The notes under the pieces were generated by a model. It had not been told where the DNA came from. It was given only the letters and a program-made list of their open reading frames with translations, and searched no databases. A DNA stretch of 38,353 bases from Candidatus Nanopelagicaceae bacterium (GTDB taxonomy: Bacteria > Actinomycetota > Actinomycetes > Nanopelagicales > Nanopelagicaceae): the NCBI GenBank assembly GCA_018882735.1, contig VERH01000009.1:1-38353 (forward strand), given 5' to 3'. This document shows, piece after piece, positions 3,288 through 38,353 of the stretch. How positions within the stretch are numbered: the first letter of the stretch is position 1; each line of letters begins with the position of its first letter. A program made the translations under genes and the position numbers.

Positions 3288-3423
3288 TTTGAAATAATTT
3301 AATAAATCTCGCCACGGGCCGGTTGACTGGTCCTCGGTGGTGGCTTACGGATGATTGCCGTGGGCTTCGATCGAAGATCCATTCTCTGGTGGCCGTGGTG
3401 GGAATAGAGAATAGGAGAGACCC
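3288..3423 (+). promoter_or_regulatory. rpsO-pnp intergenic leader with paired elements next to the pnp ribosome-binding site
   Basis: This 136-nt gap is rich in inverted repeats. CTTCGATCGAAG (3365-3376) is a perfect palindrome. ATTCTCT (3381-3387) is complementary to AGAGAAT (3406-3412), which lies directly against the pnp Shine-Dalgarno AGGAGAG (3413-3419). In other bacteria, pnp mRNA is self-controlled through processing of a leader stem. A similar control here is inference. No clear intrinsic terminator with a U-tract was seen after rpsO. Confidence 0.45.
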
Positions 3424-5616
3424 ATGGAGGGTCAAGACGTTAGTTATGCCGTTGCAAAAATAGATAACGGCAAATTTGGGAAACGAGAGATTCGTTTCGA
3501 AACCGGGCGCTTAGCGCGCCAAGCTGCAGGAACCGCAGTCGTTTATCTCGATGATGAAACGATGTTGCTATCTGCAACAACTGCATCAAAGAACCCGAAG
3601 GATCAATTCGATTTCTTCCCACTCACCGTAGATGTGGAAGAGCGTATGTATTCGGTTGGAAGAATCCCAGGTTCATTCTTCCGTCGCGAAGGCCGTCCAT
3701 CTGAGGATGCAATCCTCACTTGTCGCCTAATCGATCGCCCACTTCGACCATCCTTTATAAAAGGACTTCGTAACGAGGTACAGATCGTCGTAACTGTTAT
3801 GGCGTTAAATCCAGATCACATGTATGACGTTATTGCGATTAACGCTGCTTCGATGTCTACTCAACTTGCTGGACTTCCATTTTCTGGTCCGATTGGTGGA
3901 GTACGCGTTGCATTAATTGATGGCCAATGGGTCGCATTCCCTAACCACAGCGATCTAGAGCGGGCCGTATTCGATATGGTCGTAGCTGGACGAATTGCTG
4001 GCGATGACGTTGCGATCATGATGGTTGAAGCAGAAGCGACCACAAAGACGATTTCTCTCGTAGCTGGAGGCGCTGGTGCCCCAACTGAAGAAATTGTTGG
4101 AGCAGGCCTGGAAGCCTCAAAGCCATTCATTCGAATTTTATGTGAAGCACAAATGGATTTGGCAAAGGTAGCTGCAAAGCCAACCGCTGAATTTCCAGTC
4201 TTCCTTGATTATCAAGAAGATGCCTTCACCGCAGTTGAAAAAGCTGCGAAGGATCGCCTAGCGAAAGCGCTTACCATTTCTGGAAAGCAAGAGCGGGAAA
4301 CTGAACTTGATGCGATTTCCGAAGAAATAAAGGCGAAACTTGCCGAGCAGTTCGAAGGTCGCGAGAAGGAGATTTCTGCATCACTTCGTTCGCTCACTAA
4401 GAAGTTAGTACGTCAACGCGTACTTCGCGAGAAGATTCGAATCGATGGCCGCGGCTTGAAAGATATCCGTCCATTGACTGCCGAAGTCGAAGTGATTCCT
4501 CGAGTACATGGCTCTGCGATATTTGAACGCGGTGAGACCCAGATCCTTGGCGTTACAACTTTGAATATGCTCAAGATGGAGCAACAGCTCGATACCTTGA
4601 ATCCAGAAGATCACAAGCGTTATATGCATAACTACAACTTCCCGCCTTACTCAACAGGTGAGACTGGTCGAGTTGGTTCACCAAAGCGTCGCGAAATCGG
4701 TCATGGGGCTCTTGCAGAACGCGCTCTTCTTCCAGTTCTTCCAACTCGCGAAGAGTTTCCTTATGCGATTCGCCAAGTTTCTGAAGCTCTTGGTTCAAAT
4801 GGCTCCACCTCCATGGGATCTGTCTGCGCCTCAACGCTCTCACTCTTAAATGCAGGAGTTCCACTAAAGGCTCCGGTTGCTGGTATCGCTATGGGTCTTA
4901 TTTCTGATGAGGTAGATGGAAAGACTGAATACGTAGCGCTAACAGACATTCTTGGCGCTGAAGATGCTTTCGGCGATATGGATTTCAAAGTTGCCGGAAC
5001 TAAGGACTTTGTAACTGCGCTACAGCTTGATACCAAGCTCGACGGAATTCCAGCAAGTGTTCTTGCTAGCGCCTTGCTTCAAGCGAAGGAAGCTCGACTA
5101 GCGATTCTTAACGTCATGAACGAGGCAATCGATCGCCCAGATGATATGAATCCGCTTGCACCACGCATCATGAGTATCAAGATTCCAGTCGATCAAATCG
5201 GCGCAGTCATTGGCCCTAAGGGCAAAGTCATCAACCAGATTCAAGATGAAACTGGCGCGGAGATTACTATTGAAGATGATGGAACCATCTACATCGGTGC
5301 CACAAATGGCACCGCCGCAGATGCCGCTAAGGCCCAGATCATTGCGATAGCCGATCCGAAACTCCCTGAAGTTGGCGAGCGATACAACGGAACCGTTGTG
5401 AAACTTGCCGCCTTTGGTGCATTCGTAAATCTTCTTCCAGGTAAAGATGGCTTGCTTCATGTCTCGCAAATCCGAAAGATGCATGGCGGAAAGCGAATCG
5501 AGAATCTTGAAGATGTTATGAAAGTTGGAGATAAAGTCCACGTTGAGATCGGGGAAATCGATCCAAAGGGCAAGCTATCTCTCGTACCGGTACTCGAAGA
5601 GACCGCAAGCGAGTAG
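3424..5616 (+). CDS. pnp: polyribonucleotide nucleotidyltransferase (PNPase)
   Basis: PNPase degrades RNA 3' to 5' with phosphate, and in Actinobacteria can also add tails. The 730-residue product has two RNase PH-like halves separated by a helical region (about residues 250-330). The second half carries the active-site block [13 protein letters not shown] at about residue 517. A KH domain follows with the [11 protein letters not shown] loop, then an S1 domain ([19 protein letters not shown]) near the C-terminus. Length is normal. ATG 3424 has Shine-Dalgarno AGGAGAG with 4-nt spacing; the next downstream methionines lie inside conserved sequence. It is probably co-transcribed with or near rpsO. 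Confidence 0.97.
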
Positions 5617-5625
5617 TTAGAAACT

Positions 5626-6900
5626 ATGACAGTGCGCAAGACCGTTCATCCGAGCGGCTTGCGCATTGTTACTGAAGAAATCCCAAGTGTTCGAAGCGCT
5701 GCCTTCGGAATCTGGGTCAATGTCGGTTCCCGTGATGAATCCCCAAAAGTTGCTGGCGCATCACACTTTCTAGAGCACCTACTTTTTAAAGGCACTAAGA
5801 CTCGAACCGCACTTGAGATTTCATCTGCTATCGAGGCAGTAGGTGGCGAGATGAATGCATTCACTTCCAAGGAATACACCTGCTTTTATGCTCGAGTAAT
5901 CGATACTGATCTACCACTCGCAATTGATGTAATTGCTGATTTGATTACCTCATCACTTGGCAGACCAGAAGATGTTGAATCAGAACGTAAAGTTGTACTT
6001 GAAGAAATCTCAATGCGCGATGATGATCCATCTGATTTAGTACATGACTTATTCTCCGAGACCTTCTTTGGCGACACTCCTGTCGGTAGACCAATTCTCG
6101 GCACAGTTAAATCTATAAATGAGATGTCCCGGAATTCAGTTTTTAACTACTACAAGAAGAAGTACTTGCCACAGGACATAGTCGTTTCGGTAGCAGGAAA
6201 CATCAAGCACCAGAAAGTCATAGATCAAGTCATCAAAGCGATGTCGAAAGATGAATTCTTGGGTAGCGAAAAGAATCAAGCAAATATGCGCGCTTCTACT
6301 GCCATAAAAAGAAAAGGGGAGCGGGTCGGCCTTATTCATCGAAAAACCGAACAAGCTCATTTATTTCTTGGCGTTGATGGAGTAGCTCGTGATGATGAGC
6401 GACGTTTTGCGATGAGTGTTCTTTCGGCTGCGCTGGGTGGTGGAATGTCATCAAGACTTTTCCAAGAGGTGCGTGAAAAACGCGGCCTTGCGTATTCGGT
6501 TTACTCATATGCACAACAATTTGCTGGTACCGGAATGCTTGGGTTTTATGCCGGTTGCACACCCCAGAAAGCGACTGAGGTGATAAGAATTATCCGTGAG
6601 ATTCTCAACGATGTTGCTGTTAATGGCCTGACTCACGAAGAGTTGTTACGAGCGCAAGGAGCCGTAAAGGGAACCCTAGTTTTAAGCCAGGAAGATACCG
6701 GCTCTCGCATGAGTCGAATTGGCAAGAGTGAACTCGTCCATGGTGAAGTTCTCGGTTTTGATGAGATTCTTGGGGCGATTTCTTCGGTTACCTCGAGCGA
6801 CATTCGAGAACTCGCTAGCGAGTTCCTCACTAAGAGCCCTACCCTTGCCATAGTTGGCCCATTCAAGAAAGAGTCGGTTTTCGAGAAGGTGATGGCGTAA
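5626..6900 (+). CDS. M16 family zinc metallopeptidase (processing-peptidase-like)
   Basis: The 424-residue product is a single M16B-type unit. The inverted zinc motif HFLEH is at residues 47-51 (His47, Glu50, His51), and the third ligand glutamate is in the VVLEEISMRDDDP block about 76 residues later. The C-terminal half contains the conserved LFQEVREKRGLAYSVYS region. In Actinobacteria this gene (pepR in mycobacteria) follows pnp, as here, 9 nt after the pnp stop. No signal peptide is present, so it is cytosolic. Its substrate is not known from sequence. Catalytic residues are intact. Confidence 0.92.
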   Translation: MTVRKTVHPSGLRIVTEEIPSVRSAAFGIWVNVGSRDESPKVAGASHFLEHLLFKGTKTRTALEISSAIEAVGGEMNAFTSKEYTCFYARVIDTDLPLAIDVIADLITSSLGRPEDVESERKVVLEEISMRDDDPSDLVHDLFSETFFGDTPVGRPILGTVKSINEMSRNSVFNYYKKKYLPQDIVVSVAGNIKHQKVIDQVIKAMSKDEFLGSEKNQANMRASTAIKRKGERVGLIHRKTEQAHLFLGVDGVARDDERRFAMSVLSAALGGGMSSRLFQEVREKRGLAYSVYSYAQQFAGTGMLGFYAGCTPQKATEVIRIIREILNDVAVNGLTHEELLRAQGAVKGTLVLSQEDTGSRMSRIGKSELVHGEVLGFDEILGAISSVTSSDIRELASEFLTKSPTLAIVGPFKKESVFEKVMA

Positions 6901-35770: not shown

Positions 35771-36870
35771 ACATTGGCGTTCCCAAAGAGATAAAAAACA
35801 ATGAATTTCGCGTCGCGATTACTCCGGCCGGTGTAAGAGAGTTTGTAAGCCATGGCCACTCCGTATTTATCGAAACCGGCGCTGGACTTGGATCGGCGAT
35901 ATCTGATGATGACTATAAGAAAGTCGGAGCCACAATCCTTGGTAGCGCTGATGAGGTTTGGAGTAAGGCTGAATTAGTTTTAAAGGTTAAAGAGCCGATT
36001 GCCGCTGAGTACAAACGGATGCGAAAGGGCCAAGCCCTCTTTACCTACCTCCATCTTGCCGCTTCAAAAGAATGTACCGATGCGCTAATCGAAAGCGGCA
36101 TAACTGCAATTGCATATGAAACTGTTGAAGTAAATGGCGCGCTCCCGCTACTTGCACCGATGAGTGAAGTTGCTGGACGAATGGCCGCTCAAGTCGGCGC
36201 TGCCGCCTTGCAACGAAGTAACGGTGGTCGCGGAGTTCTCCTTGGTGGAGTACCTGGAGTGAGACCTGGACGGGTCTTAGTTCTTGGGGGAGGCATTGCT
36301 GGACTTGCCGCCGCCACTATCGCTCACGGCATGCGCGCTGATGTAACGGTTGTAGATCTAAACCAGAAGCGGCTTGGCGAGATTGACCAGATTTTCAACG
36401 GCACCGTAAAGACTCTTATGTCTAGCGCTCATGCGATTGAAGAAGAGGCCCTACAAGCCGATCTTGTAATTGGTGCGGTACTAATTCATGGCGCAAAAGC
36501 CCCGAAGTTGATTAAGAATGAATTGGTTAAGCGGATGAAAGCCGGCTCTGTTCTAGTGGATATCGCAATCGACCAGGGCGGCTGTTTCGAAGATTCTCGC
36601 CCGACTACCCATGCCGAACCGACCTTCAAGGTCCACGATTCCATCTTCTACTGCGTAGCAAATATGCCAGGCGCCGTCCCATTTACATCTACCTATGCGC
36701 TATCTAATGCAACATTGAAATACGCCCTCGCCTTAGCAAATCTCGGTTGGCGAGAGGCGCTCCGGCAGGATTCCGGATTGGCCCTTGGTTTAAATGTCCA
36801 CGAAGGAAAGATCTATTACCAAGCCGTCGCCGACGCGCACGGTCTATCGGGACATAAGTGGACTTTTTGA
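35767..36870 (+). CDS. ald: alanine dehydrogenase
   Basis: Ald interconverts alanine and pyruvate plus ammonia with NAD. The 367-residue product begins NIGVPKEIKNNEFRVAITP. It has substrate/catalytic residues Lys75 (KVKEP) and His96 (TYLHLAAS), the APMSEVAGRMAAQVGA block, and a Rossmann loop GGGIAGLAAA near residue 174. Key residues are present and length is normal. GTG 35767 overlaps the DUF4192 stop. The promoter of the following riboswitch lies in its last codons. Confidence 0.96.
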   Translation: MNIGVPKEIKNNEFRVAITPAGVREFVSHGHSVFIETGAGLGSAISDDDYKKVGATILGSADEVWSKAELVLKVKEPIAAEYKRMRKGQALFTYLHLAASKECTDALIESGITAIAYETVEVNGALPLLAPMSEVAGRMAAQVGAAALQRSNGGRGVLLGGVPGVRPGRVLVLGGGIAGLAAATIAHGMRADVTVVDLNQKRLGEIDQIFNGTVKTLMSSAHAIEEEALQADLVIGAVLIHGAKAPKLIKNELVKRMKAGSVLVDIAIDQGGCFEDSRPTTHAEPTFKVHDSIFYCVANMPGAVPFTSTYALSNATLKYALALANLGWREALRQDSGLALGLNVHEGKIYYQAVADAHGLSGHKWTF

Positions 36871-36887
36871 TTCGCATTTCCTAGAGT
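36859..36887 (+). promoter_or_regulatory. promoter of the SAM-IV riboswitch transcript
   Basis: TGGACT (36859-36864), a 17-nt spacer and TAGAGT (36882-36887) fit a housekeeping promoter. The riboswitch sequence starts 6 nt after the -10, so the RNA would begin with the aptamer. The -35 lies inside the ald coding region. Confidence 0.65.
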
Positions 36888-36893
36888 CCGCCT

Positions 36894-37002
36894 AGGTCAC
36901 GAGTTCCAGCTTCAAGCCCCGGCTAACTGGACGGCAACCCTCCACCGCGGTGGGGTGCTCCGGGTGAGGACCAGGTCGAGAATTTCGACAAGCGCGGGTC
37001 TG
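36894..37002 (+). promoter_or_regulatory. SAM-IV riboswitch
   Basis: The sequence matches the actinobacterial SAM-IV class as I know it. An opening GGUC (36895-36898) can pair with GACC (36969-36972). The UCCAG/CUGGA stem (36905-36909 with 36927-36931) and the GGCAACCCUCC core follow. The CCACCGCGGUGG hairpin is at 36942-36953. A last stem GUCGA/UCGAC (36975-36979 with 36985-36989) precedes GCGCGGGUC. Downstream, a GTCCA/TGGAC stem (37017-37021 with 37029-37033) ends 6 nt before the Shine-Dalgarno GAAAGG (37040-37045). SAM binding would lower expression of the transporter genes. A covariance-model search would settle boundaries. Confidence 0.9.
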
Positions 37003-37050
37003 CAAGAAATTGTCAGGTCCAGCGTTATTGGACATCTATGAAAGGCAATA

Positions 37051-37905
37051 ATGAAGAAGCTACTAAAACTAACTCCATTCATTCTCGCTGCTCTAGTCCT
37101 TTCCGCATGCTCATCATCAGATGAGGGCGGATCAGCTAGCGGCGATACAACTACTTGCTCTCCAGATTCACTACAAACAGTTGAAGCTGGCGTACTAACA
37201 ATCGCAACCGGCGAACCTGCTTATGAACCATGGGTCTTAAATGACGCTCCTGAGTCAGGCGAGGGCTTTGAAGCTGCAGTCGCATACGCTGTCGCAGCAC
37301 AACTTGGATATGACCAAGCTGCAGTCAAATGGGTACGCACCACATTTGATGGGGCCATCGCTCCAGGACCAAAGAACTTTGATTTCAATATCCAGCAATA
37401 TTCCATAACGGAAGAGCGCGCGAAGGTCGTTGACTTCTCAAGCGCTTACTACAAGTCCAATCAATCAATCGTTTCATTTAAGGGAAGCAAGATTGAGGGC
37501 GTAACGAGCATCGCCGATCTCCAAGCCAAGAATCCGAAGTTGGGTGCGGCTGTAGCTTCGACTTCGCTGGATGCCATTGAGAATCAACTCGGACTTAAGG
37601 CACAAGTATTCAACGATAATGCCGCAGCAGTTGCTGCATTAAAGAATGGCCAGATCGATGGTCTCGTCGTTGATCTACCAACCGCTTTCTATCTCTCCGC
37701 AGTTGAAGTTCCAAAGGGAATAATTGTTGGCCAGCTTGAGAACTCTGCTGCAAATGATGCCGGCGCAGGACTCTTGCTCGCGAAAGATAGCCCGATCACT
37801 TCATGCGTCACCCAAGCGGTTGATGCAATCCGTGATAACGGCACCCTTGCTGCAATCACCGAGAAGTGGCTAGCGGCTTCGGCTGGCGCGCCTTTCTTGA
37901 AGTAA
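37051..37905 (+). CDS. amino-acid ABC transporter substrate-binding lipoprotein (family 3)
   Basis: A 284-residue lipoprotein with lipobox LSAC (lipidated Cys20). A family-3 periplasmic binding fold follows (GEGFEAAVAYAVAAQLGY; FDFNIQQYSITEERAKVVDFSSAYY; IDGLVVDLPTAFY). Two further cysteines (the one in TTTCSPDS and the one in PITSCVTQ) might form a disulfide. Family-3 proteins bind polar amino acids. The SAM-IV riboswitch in front implies methionine, cystine or another sulfur compound as ligand (inference). It is not a MetQ/NlpA-type protein. ATG 37051 has Shine-Dalgarno GAAAGG with 5-nt spacing. Confidence 0.9.
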   Translation: MKKLLKLTPFILAALVLSACSSSDEGGSASGDTTTCSPDSLQTVEAGVLTIATGEPAYEPWVLNDAPESGEGFEAAVAYAVAAQLGYDQAAVKWVRTTFDGAIAPGPKNFDFNIQQYSITEERAKVVDFSSAYYKSNQSIVSFKGSKIEGVTSIADLQAKNPKLGAAVASTSLDAIENQLGLKAQVFNDNAAAVAALKNGQIDGLVVDLPTAFYLSAVEVPKGIIVGQLENSAANDAGAGLLLAKDSPITSCVTQAVDAIRDNGTLAAITEKWLAASAGAPFLK

Positions 37906-37935
37906 TTGCGAAGATAATTAACGACTAGCTATAAC
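37906..37935 (+). promoter_or_regulatory. putative second promoter before the permease gene
   Basis: TTGCGA (37906-37911), an 18-nt spacer and TATAAC (37930-37935) lie in the 38-bp gap after the binding-protein gene. The permease ATG (37944) is 8 nt after the -10, so a leaderless mRNA independent of the riboswitch is possible. Confidence 0.5.
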
Positions 37936-37943
37936 GTTCGAAC

Positions 37944-38353
37944 ATGGGGCGTAACTCAGGAGAAAGTTCCGGAGTTACGCCCTATGACTTTGGTGGTAAG
38001 TGGGAACCAAGTGCCCACGAGTTATCTAGAAGGGCTGCTCGCAAGAAGCGGAATCGCAAAAATGCCCTCATAGCCAGCGTTTCAAGCATTTTAGTTCTGG
38101 GAACTTTAGCCATATTGGTAGTGACATCTCCAGGTTGGAAATTACTCTCCGAAACGTTCTTTGCTTGGGCATATGGAGTGGAAGTCCTGCCAAAGATAAT
38201 CCTTGGCTTTGGCACAAATGTTGTTCTCACATTGATTGCTGGAACATCTGTAGCGATTTTGGGCTTGTCCTTGGCTCTGATAAGAACATCAAAGTCTCCA
38301 GCCCTCACTCCATTTAGATTGTTAGCGACTGCTTATGTGGACCTCTTCCGTGG
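37944..38353 (+). CDS. amino-acid ABC transporter permease (N-terminal part, cut by window end)
   Basis: The frame is open from ATG 37944 to the end of the window (136 codons). A hydrophilic N-terminus is followed by a basic cluster (RRAARKKRNRKN) and a first membrane helix (about residues 44-62). The start of the HisM/GltK-like permease domain comes next (GFGTNVVLTLIAGTSVAIL). It would pair with the binding protein upstream; the ATPase and any second permease lie outside. No alternative start exists before the first helix. There is no Shine-Dalgarno. Confidence 0.88.
   Translation, partial: MGRNSGESSGVTPYDFGGKWEPSAHELSRRAARKKRNRKNALIASVSSILVLGTLAILVVTSPGWKLLSETFFAWAYGVEVLPKIILGFGTNVVLTLIAGTSVAILGLSLALIRTSKSPALTPFRLLATAYVDLFR
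37947..37982 (+). repeat. 11-bp perfect inverted repeat at the start of the permease gene
   Basis: GGGCGTAACTC (37947-37957) is perfectly complementary to GAGTTACGCCC (37972-37982), with a 14-nt loop. It begins 3 nt after the permease start codon begins and lies within coding sequence. In RNA it would be a stable hairpin. There is no U-tract after it. Confidence 0.9.

Follow-up and report, generated by a model that had tools for sequence, protein, structure and literature searches.

Why should a strong RNA hairpin cover the first codons of an ABC transporter permease? The question is raised by the end of a 38,353-nt stretch of DNA from a Candidatus Nanopelagicaceae bacterium (the whole stretch analysed, hereafter the window), where a SAM-IV riboswitch (36895-37000, plus strand; Rfam RF00634, 101.8 bits) is followed on the same strand by an open reading frame for a substrate-binding lipoprotein (SBP) of the SBP_bac_3 family (37051-37905; Pfam PF00497, E 6e-23), and then by the start of an ABC permease gene that runs off the contig end (37944-38353). 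The 136-aa permease fragment in the window has no Pfam match of its own, and the assignment comes from its reading frame and from PF00528 matches in the orthologues G015:C18:57182 and G000:C40:1271. ATG 37944 is the sole usable start seen in the permease frame, which agrees with the preliminary description in finding no other in-frame start before the first helix. The riboswitch ahead of the SBP gene hints that methionine, or some compound related to it, is taken up, and sequence resembling the riboswitch region precedes the SBP gene in several relatives.

The hairpin lies at 37943-37986 on the plus strand, with its 5' end 37 nt past the SBP stop codon; it spans permease codons 1-15 and holds the ATG inside its stem. 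A perfect 11-bp hairpin at the first permease codons had been described before and is exactly where it was placed, with GGGCGTAACTC (37947-37957) pairing with GAGTTACGCCC (37972-37982), but the real stem is longer: 19 bp between arms 37943-37961 and 37968-37986, which are 89% complementary. The best window over the hairpin folds at -32.2 kcal/mol, and the hairpin ranks second in stability among all 60-nt windows on both strands of the 38-kb stretch, and a 105-nt region containing it has a folding z of -4.3, with 0 of 200 shuffles equally low. A covariance search of the hairpin region against Rfam returned no family at its gathering score, the only hit being RF03945 on the minus strand, whose 20.5 bits fall short of the cut-off of 100.

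Part of this locus was met twice in the same assembly. Positions 37039-37163 (125 nt) recur letter for letter where a different contig of this genome begins (G000:C40, L002) and the two diverge beyond, with 75% identity over the SBP and permease genes; C40 is 92% like genome G012, and the window upstream of the branch is 88% like it. The shared segment is probably an assembly branch between two strains, or else a second copy, and the final 1.2 kb of the window may come from another strain. The hairpin is present on both branches.

The hairpin is a real, selected RNA element, neither a chance structure nor a by-product of coding. When the first 28 permease codons were recoded synonymously, 0 of 300 recodings were as stable as the native sequence (-28.4, where the recodings averaged -13.2 with sd 2.5; z -6.2), and at most 3 of 300 were as stable in 41 of the 62 loci given the same treatment; in most of the other 21 the 5' arm lies wholly or in part ahead of the ATG, so that recoding sees just part of the stem. 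Over 16 distinct sequences from the genus, pairing holds in 96.4% of cells, a score that 0 of 500 shuffles reach, while structures slid along the same sequences pair in at most 53.6%. Six of the 12 stem pairs examined in these relatives have changed on both sides and four are invariant. With these double changes the encoded residues differ in both arms, GRNS..GVTP in the window becoming GRGS..GATP in relative L009. Conservation of both arms as pairs beyond what the protein needs had been proposed as a check on the hairpin, and the double changes together with the recodings bear it out.

Across more distant relatives the hairpin is conserved by position, not by arm sequence. A DNA match to the locus was found in 16 of 24 same-genus genomes (its own genome counted), and an SBP at E 1e-40 or better in 59 of 101 genomes of the family Candidatus Nanopelagicaceae, six partial matches from that search being left out. 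After duplicates and over-short loci were removed, 77 family loci gave 64 distinct junctions, and in 59 of these no 60-nt window of the locus is more stable than the one at the SBP–permease junction, even though the arm sequences are unrelated between genera. A second set, the best 80 of 559 named records, gave 77 scorable loci (3 of 110 loci were too short) and is not independent of the first, some of its records belonging to the same species as genomes in the family set. Within it the junction is the lowest window in 49 of 49 loci with G+C of 0.60 or less, as against just 15 of 28 with G+C above 0.60 (high-GC Actinomycetota). In operons of the window's type a median of 33.5 nt separates the SBP stop from the start of the stem. 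Measured from the permease ATG, the stem's position ranges from -27 to +31; at 34 of the 64 junctions the ATG precedes the stem and at 28 it is within the hairpin, with no ATG found at two.

These positions point to the SBP stop and not the permease ATG as the anchor, and a survey of other transporters gives the same answer. All other PF00528 and PF02653 operons in the genome that the window comes from, and in one complete relative, were scored (33 loci). Junctions at or below -25 kcal/mol follow 26 of 28 SBP genes but just 1 of 73 other genes, whether permeases, ATPases or others (Mann-Whitney p 2e-12, two genomes); two of the genes counted as SBPs, upstream in L078 and L099, have no Pfam match and were so classed by signal peptide and position, and the permease start of L102 was probably called too early. 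The SBPs come from many Pfam families, including SBP_bac_1, 5, 6 and 8, Peripla_BP_4 and 6, and Bmp. At 60 nt the two SBP junctions lacking such a hairpin are L086 and L100; with 64-nt windows 27 of 28 reach -25, L086 then passing on account of a stem deep within the following gene. Where an ATPase rather than a permease comes next, the hairpin still directly follows the SBP gene (L081, L089, L090, L107-L109). Stems after these other SBPs start a median 27 nt past the stop, and at 21 of 27 junctions they end before the next gene starts, by at least 14 nt. In L105 an SBP hairpin (1614-1673, about -26 to -28 kcal/mol) lies inside the next gene, an ABC ATPase. The hairpin thus belongs to the SBP gene, with the SBP stop codon and not the permease start as its fixed point, and its overlap with the permease start is a consequence of a short intergenic gap.

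Judged from sequence, the hairpin is probably a 3' boundary element of the SBP message within a single operon of riboswitch, SBP and permease. Transcripts that are cut or that end within the permease gene would be trimmed by 3'-5' exonucleases until the stem is reached, and polynucleotide phosphorylase (PNPase), which is encoded in the same window, is a candidate for the trimming enzyme. An SBP-only mRNA would persist while the permease part decays, and lipoprotein would then be made in excess over permease, whatever operon output the riboswitch sets. Lying as it does in an unconstrained N-terminal tail of the permease, the stem may also slow initiation there. The stem, its conservation as pairs and its link to SBP genes were computed here; the exonuclease block, the nuclease responsible and the resulting ratio are what we infer from them. 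That the hairpin shields the binding-protein message at its 3' end, with lipoprotein outnumbering permease as the result, had been one of the options in the preliminary description, and it is now the best supported of them, by the 26 of 28 against 1 of 73 junctions and by the pairs that have been kept; to that proposal the survey adds the association of hairpins with SBP genes of many families in two genomes.

The single most stable 60-nt window in the 38 kb lies elsewhere, at 5613-5672, where the PNPase gene (3424-5616) meets a gene for an M16 peptidase whose first codons the hairpin covers. This junction hairpin occurs in 24 of 24 same-genus genomes at -22 to -33 kcal/mol, with the letters of its arms changed. 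PNPase is the kind of exonuclease that such a stem would block. An Actino-pnp RNA (RF01688) lies upstream of the PNPase gene at 3326-3382.

An SBP-only mRNA could also arise by termination instead of decay if the stem were a partial intrinsic terminator at which RNA polymerase stops in a fraction of transcripts. This is the strongest of the alternatives, though on balance an unlikely one. Stem-loops after SBP genes in Clostridia are internal terminators, many with few U residues (PMC9045158), and 10 of 26 other SBP hairpins have at least five T in the eight bases past the last G-C pair. Canonical terminators are moreover not enriched in the window (34 found against 42 expected, from two overlapping scans), so that terminators of this genome may not as a rule carry a U-tract. 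The window stem itself has the GC-rich stem of an intrinsic (Rho-independent) terminator but lacks the U-rich tail, with four T in the eight bases after it and no site found there by a terminator scan. Nor is there a directional U excess: T downstream of the stem shows no surplus over A upstream, either for the other SBP stems (3.88 vs 3.54, n=26, p 0.37) or for stems of the window's type (2.98 vs 3.16, n=64). Partial termination keeps some of its probability because the stem flanks are A/T-rich on both sides. An apparent U-tail excess after SBP stems was set aside when the opposite side, taken as a control, gave the same excess of A.

Stems within coding regions may activate translation, and a stem that buries a start codon could damp it. 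Damping of permease translation, which the preliminary description had also offered, would suit the window, where the ATG is inside the stem, as well as the 28 of 64 orthologous junctions with the start codon in the hairpin. The remaining junctions argue otherwise: the ATG is upstream of the stem in 34 of 64, and the hairpin does not go with permeases whose preceding gene encodes an ATPase or a further permease. Because 21 of 27 other SBP stems end before the next gene, damping cannot be the function that these hairpins share; it may be a side effect in the window, and as the selected function it is improbable.

A third proposal set the hairpin at the 5' end of a leaderless permease mRNA made from a second promoter. 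The hexamers are as written, TTGCGA (37906-37911) and TATAAC (37930-37935) separated by 18 nt on the plus strand, and a -10 of the TANNNT type, TAACGT (37932-37937), stands six bases before the ATG, a spacing that we take to fit a leaderless actinobacterial start. No Shine-Dalgarno sequence was seen in the window, and leaderless mRNAs are common in some Actinomycetota (PMC3774663). What had been called a good promoter is nevertheless weak: a sigma-70 scan of 36800-38353 gave 0 sites against 1.5 expected by chance, a scan that misses this site because TATAAC lacks the final T. In the closest relative, L005, the corresponding ATG is preceded by AGGAG and no promoter-like motif was seen, while in most other same-genus relatives the ATG stands 4-16 nt upstream of the stem. 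The relatives thus lend no support to a leaderless message, which for this genome we regard as very improbable. Least credible of all is that the hairpin arose by chance or by encoding the GRNS..GVTP tail, for although that tail is rich in Gly and Ser and the letters of the lower stem do not vary among same-genus relatives, both the recoding results, in the window and across loci, and the unrelated arms that still pair in other genera speak against it.

There is some reason to think, though we put it forward tentatively and at less than even weight, that in the Nanopelagicaceae, with their streamlined genomes, a 3' hairpin of its own marks nearly every SBP gene of a genome. In the present amino-acid operon the stem would have been pushed into the permease start, with RNA pairing shaping the N-terminal tail and the arms replaced wholesale between genera, such that one stem both ends the SBP message and hides the permease start. 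If the preferred reading of a 3' boundary element is true, these freshwater bacteria, abundant and reduced in genome, need no additional promoters to hold their binding proteins in large excess, and an RNA element dictates the N-terminal residues of a membrane protein. It would also furnish a prediction from sequence for metatranscriptomes, namely a step in coverage at each hairpin. SBP transcripts of the Nanopelagicaceae (acI) reach 1.7-411 times the median for some transporters, figures that do not compare SBP with permease within one operon (PMC5574706). Such high expression is in keeping with either protection or termination.

The mechanism would be an ordinary one, known in kind, with the novelty lying in the lineage and in an unusual, rule-like regularity. 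A literature search for Nanopelagicales with riboswitch or stem-loop found no papers, and one for actinobacteria with differential mRNA decay and SBP found nothing on point. Programmed differential operon decay stabilises the SBP segment of five ABC operons in E. coli, malEFG among them, and of 26 protective hairpins there, 17 are located within the following gene (PMC5927463). The likeness is close: a hairpin after the SBP gene, without a U-tract, often in the next coding sequence, and conserved in relatives (PMC5927463). At the window junction, too, there is a stable hairpin directly 3' of the SBP gene, presumably the over-expressed one, with no U tract and a conserved structure. The systems differ in that decay was measured in E. 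coli (PMC5927463), while the present case is read from its DNA. The host is a member of the Actinomycetota and not a gammaproteobacterium, and hairpins after SBP genes are near-universal in the two genomes surveyed. Position differs as well, the hairpin covering codons 1-15 here and lying on average 107 nt into the gene in E. coli (PMC5927463). The internal terminators of cellulolytic Clostridia, which are proposed to set SBP:translocator stoichiometry (PMC9045158), share the long GC-rich stems of low U content after SBP genes, but there the intergenic regions are long and termination was measured, whereas here the stem lies inside the permease gene and has no U-tract. Protection and partial termination would give the same outcome, an SBP-only message.
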